In this document: piece after piece, positions 3,228 through 39,279 of the stretch
Numbering within the stretch: position 1 is the first letter of the stretch
How the letters are laid out: the number at the start of each line of letters is the position of its first letter
Program-made: the position numbers and the translations under genes
The notes under the pieces: model-generated
Databases searched by the model: none
Seen by the model: the letters and a program-made list of their open reading frames with translations, nothing else
Told to the model about the DNA's origin: nothing
Assembly: GCA_001838165.1 (NCBI GenBank)
Contig: KV835905.1
Location: forward strand, 37,369-77,679
Length of the DNA: 40,311 nucleotides
Direction: 5' to 3'
Source of the DNA: Actinomyces sp. HMSC035G02
Lineage (GTDB): Bacteria; Actinomycetota; Actinomycetes; Actinomycetales; Actinomycetaceae

Positions 3228-3292
3228 GACGAGGCCGGGGCCGCCCCCGGCTGCTGCGTGCAGTGACCGGGATGGTGCACCCCGGCCTCGTC
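3228..3292. terminator. Inverted pair of the GACGAGGCCGGGG motif; hairpin between ppiA and the rhomboid gene
   Basis: GACGAGGCCGGGG at 3228-3240 and its exact complement at 3280-3292 give a 13-bp stem with a 39-nt loop, 18 bp after the ppiA stop. It can act as a terminator and is made of two copies of the dispersed motif described in the findings. Confidence 0.6.
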
Positions 3293-3317
3293 CCTTACCC
3301 CCGCCGAAAGGGAAGCT

Positions 3318-4196
3318 ATGAGCATGCCGAGCTACGGCCAGCGCTCTGACCCGCGCGCCGCCCCCGACTGTCCACGCCACCCGGGCGTGCGCAGCGTCGA
3401 CTACTGCAAGCGCTGCAACCGACCCATGTGCGTGGACTGCGCGATCCCCACCGAGGTTCGCTCGATCTGCGTGGACTGCACGTCCTCGAAGAAGCGGTGG
3501 ATGGGCTCCGCCTCACGCGCGGCCGCAGCCGGCACGCCGGTCGTCACCTACGCGATGATCGCGATCTGCGTCCTTATGTACGCGGTGACCTCCTTCGCGC
3601 CCTCGACGAAGGTCGACCTGGCGCTCCTACCCGCGACCCTCATGTCGCGCCCGTGGACGGTCCTCACCGGTGCGTTCCTGCACGGCGGCATCATGCACAT
3701 CCTGTTCAACATGCTCGCCCTGTACTGGGTGGGGCGCGCGATCGAACCGGTCCTGGGCCGCTGGCGCTTCCTCACGCTCTACCTGGTGAGCGCGCTGGGA
3801 GGCTCCGCCTTCATTATCGCGTGGTGCCTCATCCAGCCCTCCGAGATCTTCGTGAGCACGGTCGGCGCGTCGGGCGCCGTCTTCGGCCTGTTCGGCGCCG
3901 TGTTCGTCCTCCAGCGCCTCGGCGGGTCAGACACGACCGCGATCGTGACGCTGCTCGGCATCAACCTCGTCTACGGCTTCGTGGTCAGCGGCATCTCCTG
4001 GCAGGGGCACATCGGTGGGGCGATCGCCGGCGTGGGCGCCACGTGGGTCCTCGTGCGCATGGCCCGCCCGCGCGCAGGCGTCACGCAGGTGCAGCAGAAC
4101 CGGCGTGAAGCGGTCGTCGCGCTCGGCATGATCGCAGGCATGCTCGTGCTCAACGCCCTCGTGTTCCGCGTCCTGCTCGAGGTCTACGGCGCGTGA
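3318..4196 (+). CDS. Rhomboid family intramembrane serine protease with N-terminal zinc-binding domain
   Basis: 292 aa. The start ATG has a good ribosome-binding site (GAAAGGGA). Residues 18-54 hold paired Cys/His (CPRHP, CKRCNRPMCVDC, CVDC), a B-box-like zinc site typical of actinobacterial rhomboids. About six membrane segments follow from residue 77. The catalytic pair is visible: GxSG with Ser185 (TVGASGAVFG) and His231 (GHIGG). The HGG loop (122-124) and Asn131 match the oxyanion side. It cleaves membrane proteins within the bilayer; its substrates are unknown. It lies between ppiA and crgA, as in related genomes. Assignment is firm; the specific role is inference. Confidence 0.93.
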   Translation: MSMPSYGQRSDPRAAPDCPRHPGVRSVDYCKRCNRPMCVDCAIPTEVRSICVDCTSSKKRWMGSASRAAAAGTPVVTYAMIAICVLMYAVTSFAPSTKVDLALLPATLMSRPWTVLTGAFLHGGIMHILFNMLALYWVGRAIEPVLGRWRFLTLYLVSALGGSAFIIAWCLIQPSEIFVSTVGASGAVFGLFGAVFVLQRLGGSDTTAIVTLLGINLVYGFVVSGISWQGHIGGAIAGVGATWVLVRMARPRAGVTQVQQNRREAVVALGMIAGMLVLNALVFRVLLEVYGA

Positions 4197-4244
4197 CGGG
4201 TCAGCAGCCGACAGGCGCATGACATCTAAGGATGACCTAATATA

Positions 4245-4277
4245 GGAAGGGTCCGGCAAATAGTGCCGGGCCCTTCC
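4245..4277. terminator. Strong hairpin between the rhomboid gene and the DUF364 gene
   Basis: GGAAGGGTCCGGCA and its near-perfect complement pair in a 14-bp stem with one mismatch and a 5-nt loop (AATAG). It starts 49 bp after the rhomboid stop and ends 23 bp before the next start codon. It may terminate the first gene or form part of the leader of the second. No T-tract follows. Confidence 0.5.
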
Positions 4278-4299
4278 TCATGCGCCCACAGGAGAGACC

Positions 4300-5061
4300 A
4301 TGACCAGCCCCTGGGACCTGTACGACCAGCTCATCGACGAGATCCCCGCCGACATCACCGTCACCCAGATCCACACCGACGGCAAATGGCGCCGCGTCGC
4401 CTCCAGCGAAGACGGCGTCGGCATGGCCTTCGGCATGAACGTCCAGTCCCGCCCGCGCGCCACCGAGGACCCCGCCGACCTCGTCGGCCGCCCCCTGCGC
4501 GACGTCGCCGCCCTCGCCAAGTCCTGGAACTTCGAGGACGCCGGCATCGGCATGGCAGCCGTCAACGCATACCACTCCCACCCCGTCCGCGCCCTCGCCC
4601 ACGGATTCCGACCCTGCAAGGAAAACAACTGGGCGCGCACCTTCCATCCCTACGCGCCCCTCGTTGCCGGCAAGCGAGTCGCCATCATCGGCCACTTCCC
4701 CTTCGCGCCCGCCGCCATGCCCGACACTGCGGAACTCAACATCCTCGAACGCAACGTCTTCGAGGGCGACTACCCCGACTCCGCCTGCGAATACCTGCTC
4801 CCTGAGATGGACTACGTCTTCATCTCCGGATCCGCATTCGTCAACAAGACCATGCCGCGCCTCCTCGCGCTCGCTTCCGACGCCCACACCGTCGTCCTCG
4901 GCCCCTCCGCCCCGGCGTCGCCCGCGATCCTGCAAGCCGGTGCCACGACCGTCATGTCCTTCGCCAGCGCGCACCCCGCGCGCCTCGAAGACGGCCTTGC
5001 CGGACGCTCCCTCCTCGGCATGTACGACGCCGGCATGAGGGTCCAGCTCAGCAGGCCGTGA
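4300..5061 (+). CDS. DUF364/DUF4213 family protein, putative heavy-metal chelation domain
   Basis: 253 aa. The ATG follows AGGAGAG. The N-terminal half (about 1-105) resembles the DUF4213 domain. The C-terminal half starts at GKRVAIIGHFPF and has a Rossmann-like layout with LGPSAPASPAIL near the end, as in DUF364. Proteins of this family have been linked structurally to metal-chelate or small-molecule binding, and the biochemical reaction is not established. There is no signal peptide or membrane span. It is not a usual member of the surrounding division cluster and looks like an insertion between the rhomboid gene and crgA. Hairpins on both sides suggest it is its own transcription unit. Confidence 0.75.
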   Translation: MTSPWDLYDQLIDEIPADITVTQIHTDGKWRRVASSEDGVGMAFGMNVQSRPRATEDPADLVGRPLRDVAALAKSWNFEDAGIGMAAVNAYHSHPVRALAHGFRPCKENNWARTFHPYAPLVAGKRVAIIGHFPFAPAAMPDTAELNILERNVFEGDYPDSACEYLLPEMDYVFISGSAFVNKTMPRLLALASDAHTVVLGPSAPASPAILQAGATTVMSFASAHPARLEDGLAGRSLLGMYDAGMRVQLSRP

Positions 5062-5067
5062 CCCGAG

Positions 5068-5124
5068 GACGAGGCCGTTGCCCGCTCGCTCGGCTGAGAC
5101 CCGGTAGCCAGCCACGGCCTCGTC
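5068..5124 (+). terminator. Motif-pair hairpin after the DUF364 gene
   Basis: GACGAGGCCGTTG at 5068 and the complement of GACGAGGCCGTGG at 5112-5124 form a stem 6 bp after the stop. This is the same motif pair as at 3228-3292. Confidence 0.5.
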
Positions 5125-5134
5125 GATCGAAATA

Positions 5135-5168
5135 GTGGGGCGTCCCGGCCGCAGCCGGAACGCCCCAC
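5135..5168 (-). terminator. Hairpin downstream of crgA
   Basis: GTGGGGCG and CGCCCCAC close a stem extended by CCGGC/GCCGG with one mismatch. It lies about 46 bp past the crgA stop on the minus strand. Confidence 0.5.
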
Positions 5169-5214
5169 ACTCACACTCACTGGAGACGGCAGGCGCACGC
5201 CCACCGCGCCCCCG

Positions 5215-5478: not shown

Positions 5479-5601
5479 GTCGGGTCCTCTCTGCTGGCCC
5501 GCGCGGGAAGAAAACCGCCCGGCGGTGATGAATTAGTCGCAACACTAGCGTAGTCTCGGACGTGGAAAGTGCCAAAGCGCAGCGCCACGAGAGGGGGAAA
5601 G

Positions 5602-7245: not shown

Positions 7246-7273
7246 GACGAGGCCGGGGAGACCCGGCCTCGTG
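7246..7273 (+). terminator. Compact motif-pair hairpin after the sortase operon
   Basis: ACGAGGCCGGG and its complement form an 11-bp perfect stem with a GAGA loop, 20 bp after the stop of the small membrane protein. It is the tightest version of the dispersed motif pair in the window. Confidence 0.65.
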
Positions 7274-7316: not shown

Positions 7317-7377
7317 GCGCTCGCGCGCCCGGAGAACGGACAGCGCTCGCGCGCCCACTAGGGGAGCGCCCTACGAT
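7317..7377 (+). promoter_or_regulatory. Probable trpG/pabA promoter with 14-bp direct repeats
   Basis: GCGCTCGCGCGCCC occurs exactly twice (7317-7330 and 7343-7356), 26 bp apart. GAGCGC at 7364-7369 is complementary to the first six bases. TACGAT at 7372-7377 is a reasonable -10, which would give a leader of about 40 nt. The repeats could be an operator. Confidence 0.4.
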
Positions 7378-7423
7378 GGATGCCGGAGAAGGGGCCACGG
7401 CCTCGTACATGAAAGGACCCGCG

Positions 7424-8062
7424 ATGGCACGAATCCTCTGCGTCGACAACTACGACTCGTTCGTCTTCACGATCGTGGGCTACCTGCGCCACCTGGGTGC
7501 GACCGTGGATGTCGTGCGCAATGATGTCGTGGATCCCGCCTGGTTCGAGGCCGGCTACGACGGCATCCTCATCTCCCCCGGACCCGGCGACCCCAAGAGC
7601 GCCGGTGCCTCCCTGCAGACCATCGCCGACTGCGCCGAGCACGGCATCCCGATGCTGGGAGTGTGCCTGGGACACCAGGCCCTCGGCGAGCTTTTCGGCG
7701 CGACCGTCGGGCACGCGCCCGAGCTCATGCACGGCAAGACCTCCGTCATCACGCACGACGGGCACGGCGTCTTCGAGGGCGTGCCCTCGCCGCTAACCGT
7801 CACCCGCTACCATTCGCTGACGATCGACCCCGCGACCATGCCCGACGAGCTCGAGGTTTCCGCGAGCACCGAGTCCGGCATCATCATGGGCGTGCGCCAC
7901 CGCTCCCTGCCCCTCGAGGGCGTCCAGTTCCACCCCGAGTCCGTCATGACCCAGTCCGGGCACCTCATGTTCGCCAACTGGCTGGCGGCCTGCGGCGATA
8001 CCGACGCGCGCGAGCGGGCCGTGTCCCTGAAGCCCGTCGTCGCGGAGCGTTTCAAGCTGTAG
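7424..8062 (+). CDS. pabA: Glutamine amidotransferase, anthranilate/aminodeoxychorismate synthase component II
   Basis: 212 aa. It hydrolyses glutamine and passes ammonia to a chorismate-using partner, giving anthranilate (tryptophan) or 4-amino-4-deoxychorismate (folate). The start ATG precedes the conserved ARILCVDNYDSFVFT and has AAAGGA upstream. The oxyanion strand SPGPGDPKSAG is at 51-61. The nucleophile is Cys81 (GVCLGHQALGELFG), and His170 and Glu172 (QFHPES) complete the triad. No component I gene is in the window, so trpG or pabA cannot be separated by context; this locus in actinobacteria is usually annotated pabA-like. It is followed by a repeat-filled gap. Confidence 0.9.
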   Translation: MARILCVDNYDSFVFTIVGYLRHLGATVDVVRNDVVDPAWFEAGYDGILISPGPGDPKSAGASLQTIADCAEHGIPMLGVCLGHQALGELFGATVGHAPELMHGKTSVITHDGHGVFEGVPSPLTVTRYHSLTIDPATMPDELEVSASTESGIIMGVRHRSLPLEGVQFHPESVMTQSGHLMFANWLAACGDTDARERAVSLKPVVAERFKL

Positions 8063-8254: not shown

Positions 8255-8361
8255 CATCCGGATAGGTTACGAGCATCCGGATAGGTTATGCGTATCCGGA
8301 TAGCTTATTAACCTATCCGGATGTCGATAACCTATCCAGATCGGTGTTTCCTATCCAGATC
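8255..8361. repeat. Array type 1, copy 1: 19-bp-period units, three direct then three inverted
   Basis: CATCCGGATAGGTTAC-like units begin at 8255, 8274 and 8293. Their complements (TTAACCTATCCGGATG and variants) begin at 8308, 8327 and 8346. The spacing is exactly 19 bp within each half and 15 bp across the centre. Confidence 0.9.
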
Positions 8362-8681: not shown

Positions 8682-8807
8682 CATCCGGATAGGTTACGAG
8701 CATCCGGATAGGTTATGCGTATCCGGATAGCTTATTAACCTATCCGGATGTCGATAACCTATCCACATCGTCATAACCTATCCACATCGTCATAACCTAT
8801 CCACGTC
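8682..8807. repeat. Array type 1, copy 2: three direct and four inverted 19-bp-period units
   Basis: Direct units start at 8682, 8701 and 8720. Inverted units start at 8735, 8754, 8773 and 8792. The first half is nearly identical to copy 1 at 8255. The last inverted units read ATAACCTATCCACATC. Confidence 0.9.
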
Positions 8808-9086: not shown

Positions 9087-11117
9087 TCAGTGGTGGGCGT
9101 TCCCGTTATTGTTGCCGTTGTTGCCGCCGTTGTTTCCGTTCTGGCTGCCCTTCGATACCTTCAACTTCACGGTCGAATTCTTGTCCACCTTCGAACCCTC
9201 GCCGGGCTCGACGGAGAGGACCTGGCCGGCGGGCTGGTTGCCTGCGACCTCTTCGACGGTGACGGTCAGGCCCAGGGCCTTGAGCTGCGCCTCGGCGTCG
9301 TCACGGCCCATGCCCACGACGGTCGGAATCTCCACCTGTGCGGCCTTGCCATTCGAGACGGATACGCCCACGGTGGTGCCCTTCTTGACCTTCGTGCCGG
9401 TCGCGGGATCCTGCTCGACGATGCGGTCCTTCTCCTTCTCGGAGTCGACGCTCGTCACGTTGCCCAGCTCCAGGCCGACGGCCTTCAGGGTGCTGCGCGC
9501 CTGATCCTGGGTCATGCCCGACAGGTCAGGCACGTCCACCTGGTCCGAACCGGAGGACAGGTAGGCGCGGATCGTCTGACCGGCCTTCACCTTGGAACCG
9601 GGAGAGGGGTTGGTCTGCGCGACCTTGCCCTCGGGAACGGTGTCGGAGGCAACCTTGCTGGAGTCGAGCTCCCACTTCAGGCCCAGGGCCTCGATTGCCT
9701 TGCGGGCGTCGTCGGGGCTCATGCCAACGAGGTTGTCCGGCAGGGTCACCGAATCGGGGCCGGAGGAGATGGTGACGCGAACGGTCGCGCCCTTCTCGGC
9801 CTGCGTGCCCGCTGTGGGGTCGGTGGAGGCCACGGAGCCCTCAGCGACGGTGTCGGAGGCGACCTTGTCGGGGTTGAGTTCCCACGTGAAGCCCGCCTGT
9901 TCGATCTGGGTCTTCGCCTCGGCCTGGGTCAGGCCGACGACGTTGGGAACCGCAACCGACTCGGGCTGGGCGGCGCCGCGCGTCAGGGCCCACACCGAGC
10001 CGCCGATCAGCAGCAGGGCGATGAGCACGACGGTCACGATGATCGCCGTGCGACGCTTGCGGGCCTTGGCGGCCTCGTTCGCGGAGTCATCGGTAGCAAC
10101 CGCGGGCAGCGACGTGGAGGTCGCGGCCATCGCCGCGGCGGGCGCATGGCTGGGGACCGCCGCCATCGGCGTGGTCGCGGCGGTGCGCGCGGACGCCACG
10201 CCGGCGGCGGGCAGGACCTCGGTCGCCCACGAGTCGGCGGGCGGTGCACCCACGTCGAGGCCTCGGGCCACGCGCTGCAGGTCCGCGAGCATGGCCGCGG
10301 CGCTCGGGTAGCGGTCCTCGCGGTTCTTCGCCAGGGCCTTGAGCACGACGCGGTCGAGGGAGTCCGGGATGTCGGACAGGATCGACGAGGGCGTGGGCGG
10401 GATCTGCTCGACGTGCTGGTAGGCGACGGCGACGGCCGAGTCGCCCTTGAAGGGCGGGCGGCCCGTCAGCAGCTCGAAGAGAACGACGCCGGTCGAATAC
10501 AGGTCGGAGCGAGCGTCAACGGCCTCGCCGCGAGCCTGCTCGGGGGAGAGGTACTGGGCGGTGCCCACGACGGCGTTCGTCTGCGTCATCGTGGCCTGCG
10601 AGTCCGTCAGGGCGCGCGCGATGCCAAAGTCCATGACCTTGACCTTGCCGTCCGACGTCAGCATGATGTTGCCAGGCTTGATGTCGCGGTGCACCAGGTG
10701 GTTCGCGTGCGAGTACTGGAGGGCGGACAGGACGCCAGACACGATCTCGATGGCCTCGTTGATCGGAACGGCCGTACCGTCGGAGATCAGGTCCTTGACC
10801 GTGTGCCCCTCGACGTACTCCATGACGATGTAAGGCACCGCGATCGAACGGCCGGTCGCATCCTCGATGATCTCCTCGCCCGTGTCGTACACGGCGACGA
10901 TGTTCGGGTGATTCAGCGACGCTGCCGACTGCGCTTCGCGACGGAAGCGCGCCTGGAAGATCGAGTCCTGCGCCAGATCGCGGCGCAGCATCTTGATTGC
11001 TACGACGCGCGACAGGCGAGTGTCGAAGCCCAGGTGGACTTCGGCCATTCCGCCTCGCCCAATGAGCGAGCGGACCTCGTATCGGCCAGCTAGACGGTGG
11101 GCCATGGGCTCTGCCAT
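9087..11117 (-). CDS. pknB: Serine/threonine protein kinase PknB with four PASTA domains
   Basis: 676 aa membrane receptor kinase that senses muropeptides or lipid II and controls growth and division. The kinase domain is at about 13-275: glycine loop GRGGMAEVHLG, Lys42, HRDIKPGN with Asp145, and DFG with Asp163, followed by an activation loop with phosphorylatable Thr. An Ala/Thr linker leads to one span at about 357-378. Four PASTA repeats follow at about 388-452, 455-521, 526-589 and 594-656, each starting around a VPxxxG-like motif. The tail is Asn/Gly-rich (NGNNGGNNGNNNGNAHH), which is unusual. The ATG at 11117 has a strong AAGGAGG and overlaps pknA by 28 bp. It is the last gene of the operon. 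Confidence 0.97.
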   Translation of the reverse strand: MAEPMAHRLAGRYEVRSLIGRGGMAEVHLGFDTRLSRVVAIKMLRRDLAQDSIFQARFRREAQSAASLNHPNIVAVYDTGEEIIEDATGRSIAVPYIVMEYVEGHTVKDLISDGTAVPINEAIEIVSGVLSALQYSHANHLVHRDIKPGNIMLTSDGKVKVMDFGIARALTDSQATMTQTNAVVGTAQYLSPEQARGEAVDARSDLYSTGVVLFELLTGRPPFKGDSAVAVAYQHVEQIPPTPSSILSDIPDSLDRVVLKALAKNREDRYPSAAAMLADLQRVARGLDVGAPPADSWATEVLPAAGVASARTAATTPMAAVPSHAPAAAMAATSTSLPAVATDDSANEAAKARKRRTAIIVTVVLIALLLIGGSVWALTRGAAQPESVAVPNVVGLTQAEAKTQIEQAGFTWELNPDKVASDTVAEGSVASTDPTAGTQAEKGATVRVTISSGPDSVTLPDNLVGMSPDDARKAIEALGLKWELDSSKVASDTVPEGKVAQTNPSPGSKVKAGQTIRAYLSSGSDQVDVPDLSGMTQDQARSTLKAVGLELGNVTSVDSEKEKDRIVEQDPATGTKVKKGTTVGVSVSNGKAAQVEIPTVVGMGRDDAEAQLKALGLTVTVEEVAGNQPAGQVLSVEPGEGSKVDKNSTVKLKVSKGSQNGNNGGNNGNNNGNAHH

Positions 11118-13249
11118 GTCCTAACCTCCTTGATAATGTGTGCTCCCGCACTTGGTTGTATCAGGGAGCCAAGCATGTTCTTGATCGTAATAGCTGCGAG
11201 CACGATGAGCGCAATCACGATGATTGCGACGATGACCGCGCGAATAATCTGCCTGGATGCTGGGACGGGTGGTGCGACGACGCTGCGCGAGTACGCGGTC
11301 TTGGCCGCCGGACGGCTGCGTTGCGCGCTGCGAGCGTCGAGCTCGTGCCAGCGCGGGCCGCGCTTGCCCTTCTCGGGCCGCGGCTCGTAAACCGAGCGTC
11401 GCTGGCGCGTCGAGTCTGTGGCTGCGCGAGGCTGGGGAACGGTCCCGTACACGCGCGGCGACGAGGCCGTGGCTGCCTTGTCGCGGCGAGGCGACTCGGA
11501 GCGGACGGGCTGGGGAATGCTGGGGGCCGCTTGGCGGGCTGCCTGACGCTTCGCTTCTTCGGCTTCGCGGCGTTTGCGGGCCTCGCGTAGTTCACGGGCC
11601 TCGAGTATTTCGCGTTGGCGCCGTTCTTCCTCGCGGGCGACAGCTGCGCGGCGCTGCTCCTCGGCGGCGTCCTCGGCCTGGCGGGCCGCCTCACGCTGGC
11701 GCAGTCGCTCGGCGAGGGCGGCTCGTCGGTCCTGCGGCTCGGCTGCCTGAGGGGTTGCGGGCACTGCTGTTTGTGCTGGCTTTGTGTCGGCCGGGGGAGC
11801 CGGGATCGGCGCGGGGCGCTGCGCGGGTGCCGAGGCCTGGGGGCGCTGGGTCTTCTCGCTGCTGGGCTGTGGGACCTGCTCGGAGCGAGCGGGAGCCGCG
11901 TGCCTCGGGATAGAACCCGTGGTCGGGCGGGCGGTGGCGGCCTGCGCGGGCGTAGGAGCAGCGGGTGCGGGTGCTGGGACTGCCGCGTGGCGTCCGGTCG
12001 AGGTCAGCGATCGGACGGCACCCGACACCGCGGGCGCCTGCTCGCCGGTCGTCTCGGGGTGCAGGCGACGAATCCGAGTGGGAGCGGATACGGGGCGAGA
12101 GATCGGGGGGACCTCGGCCTCGTCGAGGATGCGCGGGACGGCGGCGTGGCGACCCGTGATCGGGATCGGGGCCGAGGAGGGGGCGATCGTCGTCGCTTCG
12201 TCGAGGACGGGCAGCTTGGCGTGACGGCCCGTCGTCGCGCGCACCTTCGGGGTCAGACCCGAGGGGGGCTGCAGCATCTCGTCGGGCAGCGTACGACGCG
12301 TCAGGTGGCGCACGGGCGCGACGATCGGCACGGACGGCTGGACGGGCGTACGGACCTCTTCGGGGCGCTGCGCGGCCTTCGGCAGGGGCAGCGGGCGAGG
12401 GGTCACGGAGACGCCCATCGCCTTGGCTGCGCTCGCGATTTCGCGCACGGCTGCGGATCCGGACTCGGGGCGCTTCGCGGGGTCCTTCTCCAGCAGGTGC
12501 AGGATGACGTCGGCCAGGGGTTCGGGCACGAAGTCCGGCAGTGGCGGGACGGGATCGTTGACGTGCGCGAAGGCGATGTCCACCTGGGTTTCGCCGGTGA
12601 ACGGGCGTCGACCGGCCGCGGCCTCGTAGGCGATGACGCCGAGGGCGTAGAGGTCGCCGATGGGGGTGGCGACCTCGCCCATGGCCTGCTCGGGCGGCAG
12701 GTACTGGGCGGTGCCCATGACCATGCCCGCAGCGGTCAGGTTGACCTGGCCCTTCGCGCGAGAGATGCCGAAGTCCGTCAGCTTCACCATGCCGTCAGGG
12801 CGAACAATAATGTTCGCGGGCTTGATGTCGCGGTGCACGACGCCCGCGCGCGCGGCAGCGCCCAGCGCCATCGCGACCTGCACGAGGATCGGCATGAGGT
12901 ACTCGGGCGAGATGCGGGAGCCGCCGCGCAGGTAATCCGTCAGCGGGTGGCCGTCGACGAGCTCCATGATGATCCAGCCGATGCCGTCTTCCTCGCCCGA
13001 ATCCTGGGTGTTGGCGATGTTCGGGTGCGAGATCGACATCGAGTTACGGGCCTCAAGGCGCAGGCGGGACAGCGAGAGCTCCTCGCCCGTCAGCTCGGGG
13101 CGCAGGACCTTCGCGGCGACGATATGGCCGCTGACGCGGTCGCGGGCCTTCCACACCTCGCCCATGCCGCCCTGGGCGATCGGGGTGAGCAGCGTGTAGC
13201 GCCCCCCGAGCACCCGCCCGGCACCGGAAGTCATGCGTGGCGTACTCAC
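11090..13249 (-). CDS. pknA: Serine/threonine protein kinase PknA-like, with extended linker and C-terminal anchor
   Basis: 719 aa, clearly longer than the roughly 430-aa PknA of mycobacteria. The kinase domain is at about 17-280: AQGGMGEVWKA, Lys47, HRDIKPAN with Asp141, and DFG with Asp159. A Pro/Ala/Thr-rich linker with repeated GRHA boxes (TGRHAKLP, TGRHAAVP) runs from about 285 to 500. A highly charged Glu/Arg/Ala helix (AERLRQREAARQAEDAAEEQ region), probably a coiled coil, follows at about 510-580. One span is near 668-690 and there is a short outer tail without PASTA domains. The GTG start overlaps the pbpA stop by 4 bp (GTGA). The long linker is the odd feature. Confidence 0.95.
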   Translation of the reverse strand: MSTPRMTSGAGRVLGGRYTLLTPIAQGGMGEVWKARDRVSGHIVAAKVLRPELTGEELSLSRLRLEARNSMSISHPNIANTQDSGEEDGIGWIIMELVDGHPLTDYLRGGSRISPEYLMPILVQVAMALGAAARAGVVHRDIKPANIIVRPDGMVKLTDFGISRAKGQVNLTAAGMVMGTAQYLPPEQAMGEVATPIGDLYALGVIAYEAAAGRRPFTGETQVDIAFAHVNDPVPPLPDFVPEPLADVILHLLEKDPAKRPESGSAAVREIASAAKAMGVSVTPRPLPLPKAAQRPEEVRTPVQPSVPIVAPVRHLTRRTLPDEMLQPPSGLTPKVRATTGRHAKLPVLDEATTIAPSSAPIPITGRHAAVPRILDEAEVPPISRPVSAPTRIRRLHPETTGEQAPAVSGAVRSLTSTGRHAAVPAPAPAAPTPAQAATARPTTGSIPRHAAPARSEQVPQPSSEKTQRPQASAPAQRPAPIPAPPADTKPAQTAVPATPQAAEPQDRRAALAERLRQREAARQAEDAAEEQRRAAVAREEERRQREILEARELREARKRREAEEAKRQAARQAAPSIPQPVRSESPRRDKAATASSPRVYGTVPQPRAATDSTRQRRSVYEPRPEKGKRGPRWHELDARSAQRSRPAAKTAYSRSVVAPPVPASRQIIRAVIVAIIVIALIVLAAITIKNMLGSLIQPSAGAHIIKEVRTWQSPWPTV

Positions 13250-14697
13250 TGCAGCCCCGCTTCCAGGAGAGCGCGGGCGATCGGGCCGGCCACGTCTCCG
13301 CCGTGCAGCGTGGGGTTGGTGTCATCGCCCTCGACGAGGACCGCGAAAGCGATGCGCGGGCTGTCCGCCGGTGCGAAACCGACGGCCCAGGCGTTCGCGC
13401 GGTCGCCGTTGCCGGTCTCAGCGGTGCCGGTCTTGGCGGCCACAGCCACGTTCGGCAGGGCCATCGTGGTGCCGGTGCCGTAGGGCTGGGAGACGACCGC
13501 TTCCATCATGGCGCGCAGCTTCGAGGCCGTCTCCGACGAGATCGGTCGGCCGGCGTCGGTCGGGCTGTTCGTGCGCACGACCTGGTTGTCGGCGTCCACG
13601 ATCGAGTCGATGAGGTAGGGGGTCATCATCTGGCCGTCGTTCGCGATGGCCTGGGCGACCTGTGCCATCTGCAGAGGCGTCGTCTGGACCGTGTACTGGC
13701 CGATCGAGCTCATCGCGAGCTGCGCGGCGTCCGCGTCGGCGGGGAACACGGAGGGTGTCACCGTCAGCGGGATCTGCGATTCGCGGCCGAAACCGAAGCG
13801 GTTCGTCACGTCGACGAGCTGCTGGTTCGTCAGCTGCTCGGAAGCCAGCACGAAGGTCGTGTTGCACGAGCGCGCGAAGGCCTCGGTCAGCGTCGGGTTG
13901 CCGTCGCCGCAGGTCGAGGACTCGATGTTGGAGACCTCGGTGGCCGTGCCCGGCAGGGTCGTCGACACGGGGGAAGGCATGTGCATATCCGGGTCGGCGA
14001 TGCCGTTTTCGATGAGGGCGATCGTCGTCAGGATCTTGAACGTCGAACCGGGGGCGTAGCGCTGCGAGATCGCGCGGTTGAGCAGCGGGTTGTTCGGGTC
14101 CGAGGACAGGGTGGAGAACGCGTCGGTCACCGCGCCGGCGTCGGAGGAGGCCAGCTGGTTCGGGTCGAAGGTCGGCGAGGAGTACATCGCCAGGACCGCG
14201 CCAGTTTTGGCGTCGAGGGCCACGACGGCGCCCTTGCGGTTACCGAGGGCCTCGGCCGCGGCCTTCTGCATCTGCGAGTTCAGGGTGAGGGAGACGCCGC
14301 CGCCCTGACGGTTCTGGCCCGTCAGGAGGTTGCGCAGGCGCTGCCCGAGCAGGGTCTGGGACTGGCCGTCCAGGACGTCCTCCTCGGTGGCCTCGATGCC
14401 CGTCGACGCGTTGCCCACCGACGAGAAGTAGCCCGTGACCGGCGCGTACAGCGGCCCCTCGGCGTAGGTGCGCACGTAGCGCTTCGAGTCTTCCTCGCGC
14501 TCCGAAGATGCGATCGCCGTCTTGTCAACGATGATCGGGCCGCGGTCGGTTTCGGCCGCGTGCAGAATCGTGCGCTGGTTGCGAGCGTCGGCGTTGAGCG
14601 AGGACGCGGAAATGAACTGCGTGTTCGTGATGCCCACACCCAGGAGGGCGAACATCAGGAGAACGATGATGAAGATCTTACGAATCTGGTTATTCAC
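13246..14697 (-). CDS. pbpA: Penicillin-binding protein 2 / PbpA, class B transpeptidase
   Basis: 483 aa. It cross-links peptidoglycan with its RodA/FtsW partner. One N-terminal anchor is at about 7-25, a dimerisation domain at about 50-130, and a transpeptidase domain after that. All three active-site motifs are present: SxxK with Ser218 (PGSTFK), SxN at 277-279 (SCN) and KTG at 422-424 (AKTGTAE). The GTG start lies 3 bp after the rodA stop, so translation is coupled. It is in the standard rodA-pbpA-pknA-pknB order and is a likely direct target of the adjacent kinases. Confidence 0.96.
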   Translation of the reverse strand: MNNQIRKIFIIVLLMFALLGVGITNTQFISASSLNADARNQRTILHAAETDRGPIIVDKTAIASSEREEDSKRYVRTYAEGPLYAPVTGYFSSVGNASTGIEATEEDVLDGQSQTLLGQRLRNLLTGQNRQGGGVSLTLNSQMQKAAAEALGNRKGAVVALDAKTGAVLAMYSSPTFDPNQLASSDAGAVTDAFSTLSSDPNNPLLNRAISQRYAPGSTFKILTTIALIENGIADPDMHMPSPVSTTLPGTATEVSNIESSTCGDGNPTLTEAFARSCNTTFVLASEQLTNQQLVDVTNRFGFGRESQIPLTVTPSVFPADADAAQLAMSSIGQYTVQTTPLQMAQVAQAIANDGQMMTPYLIDSIVDADNQVVRTNSPTDAGRPISSETASKLRAMMEAVVSQPYGTGTTMALPNVAVAAKTGTAETGNGDRANAWAVGFAPADSPRIAFAVLVEGDDTNPTLHGGDVAGPIARALLEAGLQ

Positions 14698-14700
14698 GGC

Positions 14701-16080
14701 TCACTCACCCACTCCAACGGCAGGCTGGATGCCGGAGTTCCACGGCGCGGGGGTCGAGGCCGGGCGGCGAGCAGCGTCCGACACGCGGATCAGCAGCGCG
14801 ACGGTGATCCACGAGGACACCATCGACGAGCCGCCCGCAGCCAGGAACGGGGCCGTCAGGCCGGTCAGCGGAATGATGCGCGTGATGCCGCCGAGCACCA
14901 CGAACAGCTGAATGGCCAGCGAGAAGCTCAGGCCGGTCGCCAGGAGCTTGCCGAAGCCGTCGCGCACCGTCAGTGCCGCGCGCAGGCCTCGCTGGATGAG
15001 GATCAGGTACAGGACGAGGATGGCGGCCATGCCGGTCAGCCCCAGCTCCTCCGCGAAGGAGGACAGGATGAAGTCCGAGTTCGCCAGCGGCACGAGCTGC
15101 GGGTAGCCGCGTCCCCAACCGGTGCCCATGAGGCCGCCGGAGGCCTGACCGAACAGGCCCTGGACGAGCTGGTAGGACCCGTGGTCGTATACGTCGGAAT
15201 CCAGGGCGTTGAGCCAGATGTTGAAGCGCGTCTGCACGTGGCTGAACGACTTCACGGCGATCGCGACTGCCGGCACGAAGAGCGTGAAACCGATGACCAG
15301 CCACGACACGCGGTTTGTCGCCACGTACAGCATCGCAACGAACAGGCCGAAGAAGAGCAGCGAGGTGCCCAGGTCGCGCTGCAGGACGAGGATCGCGATG
15401 CCGATCAGCCACACGACCATAATCGGGCCGAGGTCGCGGGCGCGCGGCAGGCGCATGCCCAGGAACTTACGCCCGCCGATCGCCAGGTTGTCGCGGTTCG
15501 TCACGAGGTATCCGGCGAAGAAAACAGCCAGCGTGATCTTCACGAGCTCACCGGGCTGGACGGAGATGGGACCCAGGTGGATCCACACGCGCGCGCCGAA
15601 GGTCTCCTGGCCCAGTCCGGGAATCATCGGCAGGAGCAGGAGGAACAGCGACAGCGCGCCGAAAGTGTAAGTGTAGCGGCGCAGCATGCGGTGGTCGCGC
15701 AGCATGATCAAGATGATGGCCGCGATAACGATCGCGATGCCCACGAAAAGCGCCTGGCGGAAGCCCACCACGGCCTCGTCCCTGCGCGCGTACGACAGGT
15801 CGAGGCGGTAGATCATCGCCAGTCCCAGGCCCGTCAGGGCGACGGCGACCGGCAGGATCACCGGGTCCGCGTAGGGGGCCAGGAAGTGCACGCCGACCTC
15901 GGCAATAATTGCGATCGCGACGAGCACGCCGACCTGCGTGAGCAGGTTCGCGGGGATCTCCCCCGTGTAGTTCAGCGAGGTCAGCACGTAGCCGGCGATG
16001 CCGACGGCCAGAGCCAGGCCCATGAGGGTCAGCTCCAGGAATCGGCGAGGCCGGGCGGGCGCGATCGATACGGTAGCCAT
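14701..16080 (-). CDS. rodA: RodA/FtsW family peptidoglycan glycosyltransferase (SEDS)
   Basis: 459 aa with about ten to twelve membrane segments. SEDS proteins polymerise lipid II into glycan strands with a class B PBP. The C-terminal part shows the conserved SDFILSSFAEELGLTG and the GLTAPFLAAGGSS signature. The ATG at 16080 overlaps the pstP stop (TAATG). The same frame stays open upstream to 16806 inside pstP, which is a shadow and not an N-terminal extension. Location next to pbpA and in the pstP-pknB operon supports RodA over the division-specific FtsW. Confidence 0.95.
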   Translation of the reverse strand: MATVSIAPARPRRFLELTLMGLALAVGIAGYVLTSLNYTGEIPANLLTQVGVLVAIAIIAEVGVHFLAPYADPVILPVAVALTGLGLAMIYRLDLSYARRDEAVVGFRQALFVGIAIVIAAIILIMLRDHRMLRRYTYTFGALSLFLLLLPMIPGLGQETFGARVWIHLGPISVQPGELVKITLAVFFAGYLVTNRDNLAIGGRKFLGMRLPRARDLGPIMVVWLIGIAILVLQRDLGTSLLFFGLFVAMLYVATNRVSWLVIGFTLFVPAVAIAVKSFSHVQTRFNIWLNALDSDVYDHGSYQLVQGLFGQASGGLMGTGWGRGYPQLVPLANSDFILSSFAEELGLTGMAAILVLYLILIQRGLRAALTVRDGFGKLLATGLSFSLAIQLFVVLGGITRIIPLTGLTAPFLAAGGSSMVSSWITVALLIRVSDAARRPASTPAPWNSGIQPAVGVGE

Positions 16081-22038: not shown

Positions 22039-22145
22039 GTCGCACGTAATTCGCCTGCGCTTATTTCAGACTTTGAAATTGCATCGTTGGAATTGCAACG
22101 TTTATGGGCTATGTCAAAAAATGACCGCGTTAAATTACGTGCGAC
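22039..22145. repeat. 107-bp structured intergenic element, copy A
   Basis: Terminal inverted repeats GTCGCACGTAATT and AATTACGTGCGAC bound the element. An internal near-palindrome CGTTGGAATTGCAACG begins exactly 46 bp from the left end (22085-22100). It lies between the convergent surface gene and nrdF. It is markedly AT-richer than its surroundings. Confidence 0.92.
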
Positions 22146-24091: not shown

Positions 24092-24173
24092 CGCACGTCG
24101 GGCCCGCACGCTCACGCGCACGGACCCGATCGCTGCGCCCCGGCCTCGTCGAGGCGGGACGATAGACGAAAAG

Positions 24174-29091: not shown

Positions 29092-29169
29092 TACGAGGCC
29101 GTGGCCCCTCCCGGGTCCGCGCGCCGCGGGTGATCGCCCGGACCGGCCACGGCCTCGTCCCGGATTTTT
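29092..29169 (+). terminator. Internal attenuator between gluB and gluC, built from the dispersed motif
   Basis: ACGAGGCCGTGGCC and its exact complement (14 bp) at 29093-29106 and 29146-29159 enclose a GC-rich loop. TTTTT follows at 29165-29169. It is a good intrinsic terminator inside the operon, and read-through would supply lower amounts of the permease and ATPase genes. Confidence 0.7.
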
Positions 29170-31712: not shown

Positions 31713-31819
31713 CTTGCGGATAGGTTACGAGCATCCGGATAGGTTACGACGATGCGGATACCTTAATAACCTATCCACATGCGCATAACCTATCCACATG
31801 CGCACAACCTATCCGCGTG
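31713..31819. repeat. Array type 1, copy 3: three direct and three inverted 19-bp-period units
   Basis: Direct units begin at 31713, 31732 and 31751; inverted units ATAACCTATCCACATG begin at 31766, 31785 and 31804. The period of 19 and central offset of 15 match copies 1 and 2 exactly although several bases differ. Confidence 0.9.
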
Positions 31820-31967: not shown

Positions 31968-33050
31968 TCAGGAGATCAGCGTCGACTGGTGGTGCACCAT
32001 GATCAGGCGCGACTCGCCAGAAGTCGCCGGCGCCCACACGCTGGATTCCAGCGAAGCGCCGCCCTCCCAGCGCACCCGGTAGCGGGTCAGGAACGCCCCG
32101 CCCAGGTCGTGCGCGTCGATGCGGCCGATCGCCGGAGAAGCGGGCGAGGGCCCCGCCAGGGTCGTGGTCGCGCCGCCGCCCGGCCAGATGCGCGTCGTGC
32201 GCTCGTCGGTCATGGCCGCCAGTGCCTCCTCGTCGCCGCCGGTCCACGCCAGGATGAACTCGCGCTCGCGGGCGACCGCATCCTCGGTGGTCGGAGCGCT
32301 CACGGACGAGGCCGGGGCCGCATGGGCGGGTTCGCTCGCCTCGGTGGGCGCGGAGAAAACACTGGGATGCGAACGAAAAGTCGAGGTTATGGCCTCGCCG
32401 GTGGCGCTGACACCCGTGCTCTGCGATTCAAGCGACACGGATGCGACGGGCACGCCGATAGTGTCGGCCGAGCCACCACGGGAAGTGGGCTCATCCACGG
32501 GCGCGTCAGGGGTGGGCGTCACATCGCGCGGATCTGGCGCCGTGGATGAGGTGGCGTGCTCGTCCGGCTGGGTTGTGCGCGTAGCCCCGCCCCCGAACCC
32601 GGGGCCGGGCTCGGGCGTGCGTCCCGCCTGGTAGGCCTCGGCGCACGCGCGCGCGAGGTCGTCGGCCCGCTCGTTCATATGGTGACCCGCGTGGCCCTTG
32701 ACCCACTCGAAGGTGACGCGTCGCCCCTCCATGGCGCGGTCGATCTCCTGGATGAGCTCCAGGTTCTTGATGGGCTTCTTGTCGGCCTTCGTCCAGCCGC
32801 GCTTCTTCCAGCCGAGCCGCCACTTCGATACGACGTTGATCGCGTACTGCGAGTCGGCGAGGATGTGCAGCTCTTCGCCGGTCTCGGCCGTGGCCTCGAG
32901 CAGACGCAGAATGGCGGTTAGCTCGCCCAGGTTGTTGGTGCCCTGCGGCCAGCCGCCCGCGTCCCACGTGTCCTCGTCCACGTACCACGCCCACCCCGCG
33001 GGCCCGGGATTGCCGAGGGAAGAACCGTCTGCCGCCGCCGTAATCGTCAT
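31968..33050 (-). CDS. rnhA: Ribonuclease HI fused to a C-terminal NTF2-like (DUF4440-type) domain
   Basis: 360 aa, more than twice the usual RNase HI length. It cuts the RNA strand of RNA-DNA hybrids. Residues 1-145 are a complete RNase HI: Asp8 (AAADGS), Glu43 (NLGELTA), Asp66 (LADSQYA) and Asp130 (NERADDLA), with VKGHAGHHMNE. A disordered Pro/Ser/Thr linker runs from about 145 to 265. The last 95 residues (EREFILAWTGGDEEALAAM, TTRIWPGGGATTTLAG, VWAPATSGESRLIMVHHQ) look like an NTF2/SnoaL fold. The dispersed motif is embedded in the linker as APASS. The ATG has TAGGAT 6 nt upstream, so it is probably leaderless. The fusion partner's role is unknown. Confidence 0.9.
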   Translation of the reverse strand: MTITAAADGSSLGNPGPAGWAWYVDEDTWDAGGWPQGTNNLGELTAILRLLEATAETGEELHILADSQYAINVVSKWRLGWKKRGWTKADKKPIKNLELIQEIDRAMEGRRVTFEWVKGHAGHHMNERADDLARACAEAYQAGRTPEPGPGFGGGATRTTQPDEHATSSTAPDPRDVTPTPDAPVDEPTSRGGSADTIGVPVASVSLESQSTGVSATGEAITSTFRSHPSVFSAPTEASEPAHAAPASSVSAPTTEDAVAREREFILAWTGGDEEALAAMTDERTTRIWPGGGATTTLAGPSPASPAIGRIDAHDLGGAFLTRYRVRWEGGASLESSVWAPATSGESRLIMVHHQSTLIS

Positions 33051-33092: not shown

Positions 33093-33130
33093 GACGAGGC
33101 CGGGGCGGCCCGGGCCTCGTGGCCTAGACT
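33093..33130 (+). promoter_or_regulatory. Motif hairpin and -10 box upstream of the first paralog
   Basis: GACGAGGCCGGGGC begins at 33093 and ACGAGGCC/GGCCTCGT form a hairpin to 33120. TAGACT at 33125-33130 is a candidate -10. The same arrangement is found before the second paralog at 34590-34627. Confidence 0.5.
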
Positions 33131-34589: not shown

Positions 34590-34627
34590 GACGAGGCCGG
34601 GGCCGCTCCGGCCTCGTGCCCTAGACT
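34590..34627 (+). promoter_or_regulatory. Motif hairpin and -10 box upstream of the second paralog
   Basis: ACGAGGCCGG and CCGGCCTCGT (34591-34600, 34608-34617) form a perfect 10-bp stem. TAGACT at 34622-34627 is the candidate -10 and is identical to the one before the first paralog. Confidence 0.5.
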
Positions 34628-36085: not shown

Positions 36086-36090
36086 ACCTG

Positions 36091-38439
36091 TTACAGCGTG
36101 ACGCCCACCTGGCCCAGCGCGAAGGCGAACTCCTCGCAGCGCGCCGCCCACCGGCCCTCGCGCCCGGACGGGCCGGCGTGCCCGGCGACCATCTCGGTAC
36201 GCAGGATGATCGGACGCTCGAGCGGGTCGCGCGCGGGCGTAGACCCCCCGGCCTCGTCCGTGGAGGGAACCTGGCCGGTGGCCTCGCGCAGGCGCTGCAC
36301 CCACTTGGTGGGCTCCACGAACTCGACGCGCGTGTCGTTGACCGACGTCGTCGCCATGATCGCGGGCAGGAGCGCGCCGTCGGGCACGTTCTCGTACGGC
36401 GTGTAGCGGCTCATCGCGTCGAACACGGCGCGCGAGCTCAGCGGATTTCCCCACTCCTCCCACTCGCCGACGGTGAGCGGCAGGGACGGGTCCAGGATCG
36501 TCGACAGCGCGTCCACGAAGGGCACGCCCGCCAGGATCGCGCGGAAGCGATCGGGGGCGGCGTTGGTGACCGCGCCCATGAGCAGGCCTCCGGCGCTGCG
36601 GCCCTCCGCGACGAGGCGGCCGGGCGCCACCCACCCGGAGTCGACCAGCCAGTCGGCCACGTCGATGAAGTCCGTGAAGGTGTGCTCCTTGACCAGCTCC
36701 TTGCCGTCCTCGTACCAGGCGCGGCCCATCTCGCCGCCGCCGCGCACGTGCGCGATCGCGTAGACGACGCGGCGCAGGATCGGCAGGCGCAGGTTCTCGA
36801 ACTCGGGGTCGTAGCTGACCTCGTAGGAGCCGTACCCGATCTGCCAGCCCGCGTGCGTGCCGTCCGGGCGCGCGTCGCGGTGGTGGATGAGGGTGACGGG
36901 GATGCGGGTCGCGCCGTCGCGCGCGAGCACCCACACGCGCTCCTCGACGTACTGCGCGGGGTCCCAGCCGGGCGCCTTGCGGGTGCGCAGGGTGCGCACG
37001 GTCAGGGTCGCGCCTTCGGGGTCCTCGGGGGACGAGGCCGGGGCCGGGTTCGGCAGAGAAACTTCCGCGACTGTGGGCGGCACGGTCTGCGACTGGAACT
37101 CCACGCGCAGCGGATCGGTCCACGGGGTCGGCACGGTCGCGATCGTGCGCACCGGGGCGTCGACCTCCACGCGCCGCCACGTGGGTGAGGCTTCGCGGCG
37201 ATCCCACACGTCGACCTGCGTCAGAGAGCCCGAACGAAGCGAGAGCGCCACGTAGTCCGCGTGAGCCTCGACGTCGGTGATGCGCTCGCCGGGGCCGGGG
37301 CTGCGCAGCGGCTCCCAGGACTCAAACGGCGTGAGGGGCGCGGGCTCTTCCTCCGGCAGGGGAGTGCCCGGCGTGCGATCCGCCAGCGCTTGGCGACTGT
37401 AGGCGGGGGAAGAAGTAACACCCAACTGCGCCAGGGCCTCGGGCGAACCCCCTGCAGGCAGCATCGCCTGCGCGAGCGAGCCCTCCTGCGTCAACCCCGT
37501 ATGCACGATGAACAGGCGATCACCCGCTGAATCCGCTGACACCAGCGTGCGCGGGCGCACCGGCATGAGCGGCAGCGGGCGCACGGACGGGTGGGCGGGC
37601 AGCCACAGCCACGCGCGGCCCGCCGTCGACGACGAGGCGTGAATGACGACGTGCCCCGGGAAACCCGAGGGCGCGAACCCCATCTCGAAGCCCTCGTCCG
37701 GCTCGACCAGCAGCAGCTCGTCGGCCTCGCGCGGCGTGCCCACGCGGTGCAACCACACGTCGCACGCGCGCCACGCGTCATCCACGCCCATGTAGATAAA
37801 GGACTGCGAATCATCCGCCCACGCGAAGCCGTACCCAGCGTCCACCACGGCCTCGTCGATGACCCGGCCCGACGCCTCCTGCACGACCCACGTGTAGCGC
37901 TCATCCCCGCTCGTGTCCCGCGCCCACGCGATCAGGCGCCCATCCGGGGAGGGATACATGTCCGCCAGGCGGAAAAACTCCTGCCCGCGCGCCCATTCGT
38001 TCTCATCGACGAGGAGCTCCTCGCCCAGCGTGGGGACGCCCGGTTGGGGGACGAGCGGGACCGGCACCCCGGCCTCGTCGCGCTCCACCGGCGCGCGGTG
38101 ATGCGTCGCGTACGACTCGCCCTCCGCGAAACGCCGGAAATACCAGAACTCGCCCTCGCGGATCGGAACCGTCACGTCGGTGAGCGCAGTGGAAGCCTTG
38201 ACCTCCTCCACAAGGCGCGCGGCCGCCTCGCGCGTCGGCGCCGTCACCGTATCCGCCCACGCGTTCTCCGCCTCCAAATGAGCCCTGACCTCGGGATCCT
38301 CGCTGTCGCGCAGCCAATCCCACGGGTCATCAAAATGCTGCCCGAACTGGTCGCGCACCCGGTACCCGTAACGCTTCGGGGCAACCGGGGGAGTGTTCAT
38401 CGACGAGGCCTGGGTCTCACGCGTGGTTGTGTCAGTCAT
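36091..38439 (-). CDS. ptrB: Oligopeptidase B (prolyl oligopeptidase family, S9A)
   Basis: 782 aa. It is a cytosolic serine peptidase that cuts short peptides after basic residues. The N-terminal part (about 75-430) is a seven-bladed propeller that limits substrate size. The C-terminal hydrolase domain carries Ser615 (EGRSAGGLLMGA), Asp702 (SVNDTRV) and His754 (VAGHAGPSGR). GGGEMGRAWYEDGK and the EN-containing RYTPYENV stretch fit oligopeptidase B. I chose the ATG at 38439 because TAAGAT lies 7 nt upstream and no ribosome-binding site is seen; an ATG at 38448 is the alternative. Four copies of the dispersed motif are embedded in-frame (DEAGVPVP, IDEAVVD, PAPASSPE, TDEAGGST), more than in any other gene here. 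Confidence 0.94.
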   Translation of the reverse strand: MTDTTTRETQASSMNTPPVAPKRYGYRVRDQFGQHFDDPWDWLRDSEDPEVRAHLEAENAWADTVTAPTREAAARLVEEVKASTALTDVTVPIREGEFWYFRRFAEGESYATHHRAPVERDEAGVPVPLVPQPGVPTLGEELLVDENEWARGQEFFRLADMYPSPDGRLIAWARDTSGDERYTWVVQEASGRVIDEAVVDAGYGFAWADDSQSFIYMGVDDAWRACDVWLHRVGTPREADELLLVEPDEGFEMGFAPSGFPGHVVIHASSSTAGRAWLWLPAHPSVRPLPLMPVRPRTLVSADSAGDRLFIVHTGLTQEGSLAQAMLPAGGSPEALAQLGVTSSPAYSRQALADRTPGTPLPEEEPAPLTPFESWEPLRSPGPGERITDVEAHADYVALSLRSGSLTQVDVWDRREASPTWRRVEVDAPVRTIATVPTPWTDPLRVEFQSQTVPPTVAEVSLPNPAPASSPEDPEGATLTVRTLRTRKAPGWDPAQYVEERVWVLARDGATRIPVTLIHHRDARPDGTHAGWQIGYGSYEVSYDPEFENLRLPILRRVVYAIAHVRGGGEMGRAWYEDGKELVKEHTFTDFIDVADWLVDSGWVAPGRLVAEGRSAGGLLMGAVTNAAPDRFRAILAGVPFVDALSTILDPSLPLTVGEWEEWGNPLSSRAVFDAMSRYTPYENVPDGALLPAIMATTSVNDTRVEFVEPTKWVQRLREATGQVPSTDEAGGSTPARDPLERPIILRTEMVAGHAGPSGREGRWAARCEEFAFALGQVGVTL

Positions 38440-38487
38440 GGGGACCATCTTAGAGGCGGGCTGGGGTATGGGCGGCCTGCGGACTTG

Positions 38488-38522
38488 GGAAGCACATCAG
38501 AAGAGATGTCCGATGTGCTTCC
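38488..38522. promoter_or_regulatory. 11-bp perfect inverted repeat in the divergent ptrB-gtrA region
   Basis: GGAAGCACATC at 38488-38498 and GATGTGCTTCC at 38512-38522 are exact complements with a 13-nt spacer. They sit between the ptrB promoter and the 107-bp element copy D, and could be an operator. Confidence 0.5.
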
Positions 38523-38530
38523 TAAAAAAT

Positions 38531-38638
38531 CTCGCACGTAATTCCCCGGCATCTCTTTCAGAATTTGAAATCAGATCGTTGGAATTCTGCGGTTTATGCG
38601 GGCCTGTTGATAACGGGCTGAGGGGAATTACGTGCGAC
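38531..38638. repeat. 107-bp structured intergenic element, copy D (108 bp)
   Basis: TCGCACGTAATTCCCC and GGGGAATTACGTGCGA form a 16-bp perfect terminal inverted repeat, longer than in the other copies. CGTTGGAATTCTGCGG begins 46 bp in, at the same offset. It lies in the divergent region between ptrB and the gtrA-like gene, about 66 bp upstream of the latter's start. Confidence 0.92.
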
Positions 38639-38703
38639 TTTCAGGAGTGAGGCAACTATGGGGGATCCACGAAACAGCGGCGCGACCGTGCGAGACTATA
38701 CGA

Positions 38704-39279
38704 GTGAATGACGAAAAAGCTCCCTCGCGCGGATCCGCCGCGCTCGAACCCGCGGCGCTCGCGGACTCCTCCGCCCCTCTTTCCCAGCCCGGCACCCGGG
38801 GGCAGGTTGACGGGGGAGCGGCCCCGGCCTCGTCCCTGAGCCTCACCGAGCGCGTCCTCGCCTGGGTGCGTGAATTCATCCAATTCGGCATGGTCGGAGC
38901 CACCGCCTTCGTCGTCGACGCCGGCCTGTTCAACCTCCTCCAGCACGGGCCCCTCGGCTTCCTCGCCGGGCACCCCAACACCGCGCAATTCGTCGCTGCC
39001 GCGACCGCGACCCTCTACGCGTGGATCGCCAACCGCCTGTGGACCTACCGCGGCCGCACGCGGGACAACGCCACGCGCGAGGCCATCCTCTTTTTCTTCG
39101 CGAACGCCTGCGGCATCGGCATCTCCCAGTTCTGCCTTCTGTTCACCCACCACATCCTCGGGTTCACCTCGGCGCTGGCCGACAACATTGCCGTCTACGT
39201 CGTCGGCTTCGCCCTGGGCACGGCGTTCCGCTTCTTCTTTTACCACTACGTGGTCTTCACCGGGCATACGCGCGCGTAG
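38704..39279 (+). CDS. GtrA-like family membrane protein
   Basis: 191 aa. The GTG at 38704 has no Shine-Dalgarno and GAGACT lies 6 nt upstream, so it is probably leaderless; the open frame to 38632 overlaps element D. Residues 1-48 are a disordered Ala/Ser/Pro-rich extension carrying the motif-coded AAPASSLS. Four spans follow with GtrA marks: FIQFGMVGATAFVVDAGLFNLL, AATATLYAWIANRLWTY and FRFFFYHYVVF. GtrA proteins are thought to flip polyprenyl-linked sugars for cell-surface glycosylation. It is followed 28 bp later by the patatin-like gene. Confidence 0.9.
   Translation: MNDEKAPSRGSAALEPAALADSSAPLSQPGTRGQVDGGAAPASSLSLTERVLAWVREFIQFGMVGATAFVVDAGLFNLLQHGPLGFLAGHPNTAQFVAAATATLYAWIANRLWTYRGRTRDNATREAILFFFANACGIGISQFCLLFTHHILGFTSALADNIAVYVVGFALGTAFRFFFYHYVVFTGHTRA

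Follow-up and report, generated by a model that had tools for sequence, protein, structure and literature searches.

To our knowledge, only two Gram-negative families have so far been found to use signals that act as sequence passwords for DNA uptake. The dialects of the DNA uptake sequence (DUS) of Neisseriaceae share a CTG core, two dialects may coexist in one genome, and inverted pairs are tied to terminators (PMC3630211); in Neisseria, one uptake sequence occurs per 400-1100 bp, and DUS density falls in genomic islands (PMC7371117). The uptake signal sequence (USS) of Pasteurellaceae has ComN as its predicted receptor (PMC12616744), and natural competence in Micrococcus luteus involves comEA, comEC, and Flp pili (PMC6370729). 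The subject of this analysis is a 13-bp word, GACGAGGCCGKGG, scattered over both strands of a 40,311-nucleotide stretch of Actinomyces sp. HMSC035G02 (contig KV835905.1, positions 37,369 to 77,679; hereafter the window), which probably belongs to an uptake sequence of the genus Schaalia. The closest named record to the ribonucleotide reductase protein of the window comes from Schaalia georgiae (93% identity), and the source species may lie near Schaalia odontolytica.

Like the Neisseriaceae DUS, which is read by the minor pilin ComP, the Schaalia word is short and genome-wide, lies in both genes and gaps, forms inverted pairs, and comes in dialects built on a shared core, two of which occur together in one genome (G013), as in double-dialect DUS genomes. 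It differs from the DUS in that its core is CGAGG rather than CTG, in being GC-rich and sparser, in belonging to the Actinomycetota, and in that its function is proposed from sequence. It is over-represented, like the USS, but is unrelated to it in sequence, the USS being a Gram-negative signal for which uptake has been shown experimentally. Micrococcus luteus shares its phylum and its type of machinery genes with Schaalia, but the available part of the report on it mentions no uptake sequence (PMC6370729). Among the matches listed from an open-licence literature collection, none described this word or uptake sequences in Actinobacteria.

Abundance and placement of the word

A scan of both strands of the window, allowing at most one mismatch, found 18 exact and 12 one-mismatch copies, 30 in all, against a mean of 0.60 and a maximum of 3 in 100 dinucleotide shuffles scored in the same way. 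Genome-wide counts were taken from relatives, the nearest of which, G001, shares 25% of the sampled 31-letter words of the window; exact copies of the 13-mer are denser in the window (18 in 40.3 kb) than in G001 (72 in a 380-kb sample). The word occurs 363 times in the G001 genome (182 forward and 181 reverse), where the reversed-word control gives 0, and 259-475 times in eight further relatives (G011, G012, G020, G023, G024, G120, G148, and G186), with 0-1 occurrences of the control. Altogether 200 genomes of the family were searched, 35 from the same genus and 165 from other genera. The congeneric set comprises nine rich genomes (259-475 copies), three intermediate ones (G013 with 143, G183 with 105, and G015 with 77), and 23 with 0-43 copies, and each genome of the other genera holds at most 24; as these species are related, sites in separate genomes are not independent. 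Under a fifth-order Markov model, the 12-mer ACGAGGCCGGGG is the top enriched 12-mer in both G001 (65 copies against 1.4 expected in 380 kb) and G024 (47 against 0.7 in 220 kb). The counts in the relatives are thus not the background-level ones that would have spoken against the sequence-only reading. Across the nine rich genomes, one exact word occurs per 5-10 kb.

According to gene calls made by an in-house gene finder, 42-48% of the 12-mers lie outside genes or span a gene edge (39 of 93 in G001, 26 of 54 in G024, and 47 of 105 in G012), with non-coding DNA making up 16%, 21%, and 14% of these genomes' DNA, respectively. Coding copies were compared with shuffles of synonymous codons and were found to be 11- to 21-fold in excess in both orientations: 25 sense copies against 2.0 and 29 antisense copies against 2.0 in G001, 15 against 0.7 and 13 against 0.95 in G024, and 28 against 2.5 and 30 against 2.5 in G012. 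An inverted ACGAGGCC lies within 60 bp of 57 of the 129 intergenic sites and of 9 of the 172 other sites, and a direct partner lies within the same distance of 2 of 129 and 0 of 172, both members of each pair being counted. Several inverted pairs fold into strong hairpins, some of them near gene 3' ends as putative terminators. The arrangement of inverted pairs in gaps and single copies in genes, as it had first been described, holds as a tendency.

Core, dialects, and history of the copies

The word has the position-specific, hardly varying core that would be expected of a DUS or USS. Changing one base at positions 2-6 of ACGAGGCCGGGG (CGAGG) gives 15 variants, which total 6 occurrences in the G001 sample against approximately 3 expected, a background level, while variants outside CGAGG are enriched at position 1 (23 against 2.5), position 8 (12 against 0.8), position 9 (21 against 2.4), position 10 (45 against 4.3, with G or T), and position 11 (13 against 3.0); the variant pattern in G024 is like that of G001. 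In the flanks of 303 sites from five genomes, A is present at -3 in 46% and T at +18 in 45%, against a background of 17%. The A at -3, C at +13, and T at +18 are seen alike in gaps and in sense and antisense copies, T at +18 being lowest in sense copies (36%), and the conserved unit spans approximately 13-20 bp with no body. Weaker A/T positions also flank the core of the USS.

When relatives are aligned, the word is mostly retained and its flanks are altered. Among 170 site comparisons, drawn from six reciprocal comparisons that count sites twice, 121 sites are unchanged, 44 are substituted, and 5 are gapped; identity is 0.94-0.99 in the motif and 0.76-0.86 in the flanks, for coding and intergenic sites alike. 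At the window's inverted pair 3228/3280, the 12-mer of both copies is retained in all four aligned relatives (G186, G024, G148, and G012), with some flank changes. At 15768, four more distant congeners show substitutions in an alignable gene, one of them with an additional one-base gap in the flank, and distant congeners likewise show substitutions in an alignable gene at 18192. Insertions lie beside the site at 11460 in G024 and G148, and not every site fits a substitution-only picture.

Dialects on a shared core were found for two words, ACGAGGCCGKGG and ACGAGGGCGGGG, referred to as the C and G words. In the sample of G015, a distant congener (54.6% GC), the G word ACGAGGGCGGGG occurs 36 times against 0.3 expected; 17 of 37 copies are not within genes, and the coding ones outnumber those of synonymous shuffles in both orientations (sense, 15 against 0.33; antisense, 5 against 0.07). 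Genome-wide, it numbers 1001 copies in G015 (500/501), 190 in G013, which bears both words, 157 in G016, 135 in G014, 108 in G018, and 93 in G008, with 3-10 in the nine C-word genomes and at most 19 in genomes of other genera. The 5-mers contained in the most enriched 10-mers of each pool (60 at most) were ranked, and CGAGG took rank 1-3 in 13 of the 21 genus pools and in 0 of the 4 outgroup pools. Further candidate words are TGCCGAGGCCG (10 copies in 100 kb of G017 and 8 in 80 kb of G159) and GGGACGAGGACG (8 in 60 kb of G006). The pools of S. georgiae (G007, CGAGG rank 52) and P. hongkongensis (G215, rank 8) contained no clear word; ACGAGGCCGKGGC shows a weak excess in both, with 26 and 36 copies against controls of 0 and 1. 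As a separate observation, a putative CRISPR-like repeat with GTGAGCGGGGATGAGCC stands in the G012 top list, its 12-mers occurring 85 times in 400 kb, and G120 contains GGGGA words that resemble it.

The uptake reading and its alternatives

As traits of the DUS are also seen here, we read the word as an uptake sequence that evolved independently in Schaalia and is most likely recognized at a Tad-type pilus. Genome-wide occurrence on both strands, an excess that codon usage does not account for (in the window, G001, G024, G012, and G015), hairpin-forming inverted pairs, a fixed core, conservation above that of the flanks by a history of substitution, related words, and absence from a conjugative element all support the likeness to Neisseria and Pasteurellaceae that the sequence-only reading had favored; competence genes are present too and do not discriminate. 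These genomic patterns make it probable that the word forms the core of an uptake sequence working with a Tad/Flp-type pilus, ComEA, ComEC, and recombination drive. It also appears likely, with somewhat less assurance, that this would be a third, independently evolved system of sequence-specific DNA uptake, the first in Gram-positives, which operates via Tad/Flp-type pili and in which ACGAGGCCGKGG, ACGAGGGCGGGG, and other CGAGG dialects define gene-exchange groups in Schaalia. We infer the uptake preference, the receptor, and the recombination drive, and membership of the word among DNA uptake sequences is proposed rather than established.

Under the proposed mechanism, extracellular DNA would be taken up by a Tad/Flp-type pilus together with ComEA and ComEC. 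A DNA receptor at the cell surface, for which a TadE-like minor pilin or ComEA would be the first candidates, would prefer double-stranded DNA with CGAGG inside ACGAGGCCGKGG(C). Preferred fragments would recombine at their own locus, so that alleles gaining the word by mutation would be imported more often and would spread. Such an import bias alone could fill genes and gaps on both strands and protect the word from decay, inverted pairs would be tolerable in gene gaps, where hairpins can form, and related species would drift to different dialects, partly isolating them.

DUS uptake in Neisseriaceae uses type IVa pili, and Schaalia has Tad/Flp-type pilus genes instead. Of the comEA, comEC, and pilin genes that had been named as a check on the uptake reading, comEC and ComEA-like proteins are each present in 33 of the 35 genus genomes, with comEC and the ComEA-like gene within approximately 2 kb of each other in the places listed, and T2SSE ATPases are present in all 35. 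The ComEA candidate of G120 combines SLBB and helix-hairpin-helix domains, and this genome has two Tad-type loci; none of four small proteins of these loci scored above the Pfam cut-off and one more scored just below it, no receptor-directed search having been made.

A conjugative element adjoins rpoB in G024 (TraG match; L362-L363), and a relative with 82-89% identity by aligned piece is present in G148 (L364), where relaxase, TraG, and lytic transglycosylase were identified. The 12-mer is absent from approximately 20 kb of the element in each genome; the retrieved sequence contains a single 12-mer (L362, 4179), beside rpoB and outside the part common to both. The 9-mer ACGAGGCCG is near the composition expectation in the element (2 against 0.7 in 25 kb and 1 against 0.8 in 20 kb) and reaches 88 against 13 expected in the G024 chromosome sample. 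The sparseness in horizontally acquired islands that characterizes the DUS and USS is thus seen for one element family in two genomes. Of the 51 stretches sampled from G001, G024, and G012, only L104 and L157 are without the 12-mer; they were considered as foreign islands and rejected as such, being conserved housekeeping blocks (3 and 7 proteins tested). The PF04860 profile has matches in 2 of 12 genomes, and four 20-kb stretches at the G120 match (L222-L225), an uncertain part of which may be prophage or a prophage remnant, contain the 12-mer 19 times, a count that speaks neither for nor against the uptake reading. A query of a phage collection with the G120 portal gene returned no Schaalia phage among the best 25 of 1273 matches, and a scan of viral contigs with a 14-mer found at least 80 stretches, with one copy in each listed stretch.

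Several observations weigh against the uptake reading. The density of exact words in the rich genomes is well below that of Neisseria, the conjugative-element comparison covers one element family of approximate extent, and only 12 of the 33 ComEA-like matches pass the curated cut-off. Word-poor members, S. georgiae (G007) among them, carry comEA, comEC, and T2SSE genes too, and the machinery is therefore a needed context and not evidence of the word's function. Among the dialects, coding copies in G015 lean to the sense strand (15 against 5), a 60-kb sample of G016 held 1 copy of the G word, and in the C-word pools (G001, G024, G012, and G120), where other repeats occupy the top of the list, CGAGG reaches only ranks 6-21. 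Words beyond the C and G dialects are provisional, as they derive from samples of 40-100 kb, and codon usage may contribute to the CGAGG words of G009, G004, G008, G002, G010, and the S. vaccimaxillae/G003 pool.

The alternative that survives best, itself unlikely, is that the word is bound by a host protein with a nucleoid-associated, repair, or regulatory role and is kept by selection on chromosome structure. The fixed core, the palindromic pairs, and the spacing of 21 bp, or two helical turns, between the flanking A (-3) and T (+18) would suit such a binding site. That a conjugative element of recent arrival lacks the word would fit as well. Such a protein would, however, have to act at hundreds of sites, over half of the sampled ones in genes and on either strand, and a dialect shift would presumably mean rewriting hundreds of selected sites; the motif-free 20-kb stretches in conserved gene blocks (L104 and L157) fit protein constraint and do not discriminate.

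Still less probable is a Chi-like recombination hotspot or a segregation signal (KOPS or matS-like), read by a host enzyme or an FtsK-like motor on the cell's own chromosome. Chi, too, is typically a short, genome-wide word that varies between species, similar maintenance of the word would be expected, and the 20 regions of the G012 sample show a slight imbalance (36 forward and 25 reverse in the first ten; 20 and 24 in the last ten). Overall, however, the strands are balanced: 182/181 in G001, 56 forward and 49 reverse in G012, and 59 against 48 when orientation follows the sign of the local GC skew. The last figure comes from 21 stretches, as 11 of the 32 considered for G001 and G024, the window included, had weak skew and were set aside. 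These comparisons, made independently of the position of the origin, show no strong polarity, and a weak bias is possible. Frequent inverted pairs are also ill-suited to a polar signal, and the segregation or recombination signal that had been offered as another option fares worse than the uptake sequence.

A tiny mobile repeat spread by a transposase, the other option that had been raised, is very improbable: the inverted pairs found in gaps look like REP/BIME units, but the unit of approximately 13-20 bp has no body, 172 of the 301 sites lie outside gaps, and the alignments contradict it with 44 substituted against 5 gapped sites in 170 comparisons. As the word changes by substitution and copies are conserved, it is not a mobile repeat, and membership in the REP/BIME or MITE classes, which move as a unit, carry indels of the body, and are mainly intergenic, was rejected. 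An origin in codon usage or base composition, with Asp-Glu-Ala/Gly words of GC-rich genes combined with GC-rich terminators, is equally improbable and falls short of the complete explanation that the sequence-only reading had allowed for. GACGAGGCC does lie in frame as Asp-Glu-Ala in many genes (72 of the 204 9-mers of G001), but synonymous shuffles yield 0.7-2.5 copies against 13-30 seen, antisense copies included, the outgroup Actinomyces pool (141 kb) holds 0 copies and the 165 genomes of other genera at most 24, and G015, at 54.6% GC in its sample, holds 1001 copies of its own word.

Copies in the window and significance of the word

All 20 copies first listed by the sequence-only reading are present in the window, 18 of them exact and two, at 7395 and 29092, starting with T rather than G. 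Its list of exact copies was complete, and four minus-strand coordinates were shifted by 1-2 bases (20886 to 20887, 24137 to 24138, 29145 to 29147, and 38821 to 38822); ten one-mismatch copies, at 5068, 10384, 12112, 16153, 20622, 23220, 25503, 30807, 35621, and 38402, were absent from it. Inverted intergenic pairs are formed by exact copies at 3228-3240 (+) and 3280-3292 (-), by a one-mismatch copy at 5068-5080 (+) and an exact copy at 5112-5124 (-) in a convergent gap, and by a one-mismatch copy at 29092-29104 (+) and an exact copy at 29147-29159 (-). Three exact intergenic copies have inverted partners with which they form hairpins: the copy at 7246-7258 (+), 20 bp past a predicted gene end (hairpin 7247-7272, -24.5 kcal/mol), the copy from 33093 (+) in a divergent gap (33094-33120, -21.2 kcal/mol), and the copy from 34590 (+) in a tandem gap (34591-34617, -22.5 kcal/mol). 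The exact intergenic copy at 24138-24150 (-) is flanked by convergent predicted genes.

Within genes, exact antisense copies lie at 11460-11472 (+) in the protein kinase gene 11090-13234, at 15768-15780 (-) in the gene 13237-16083, at 18192-18204 (+) in the predicted gene 17888-18589, at 20887-20899 (-) in the SpaA-domain gene 19233-21926, at 32305-32317 (+) in the RNase H-domain gene 31968-33050, and at 38822-38834 (-) in the predicted gene 38704-39279, and the one-mismatch copy at 7395-7407 (-), with T for the first G, is antisense within the predicted gene 7376-8062. The peptidase S9 gene 36091-38448 carries three exact copies in sense orientation, at 36246-36258 (-), 37845-37857 (-), and 38067-38079 (-), and one in antisense, at 37031-37043 (+).

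Other features of the window stand apart from the word. Between Ser/Thr kinase and PP2C phosphatase genes (11090-17378) lies an open reading frame of 948 residues without a Pfam match. A separate repeat family, GGATAGGTTA, has 14 exact copies in both orientations in three intergenic clusters (8260-8337, 8687-8802, and 31718-31795) and is also enriched in the G024 and G012 samples. A further repeat, AATTACGTGCGA, is found at 22040, 22133, 26700, 31641, 38532, and 38626, with opposite-orientation pairs approximately 95 bp apart at 22040/22133 and 38532/38626, and has 14 copies in the G001 sample; its counterpart differs elsewhere, being AATTGCATGCGA and TTGCATGCGAAA in G024 and AAGTCCGCTCTG in A. 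provencensis.

If the word is indeed an uptake sequence, Actinobacteria would provide a third unrelated case, and the trait would be one that evolves repeatedly. Such a case would test the need for an outer membrane and would point to a new class of receptor. Word-tagged DNA would become a practical handle for Schaalia genetics, and the dialects would make sexual isolation within a single genus directly testable.

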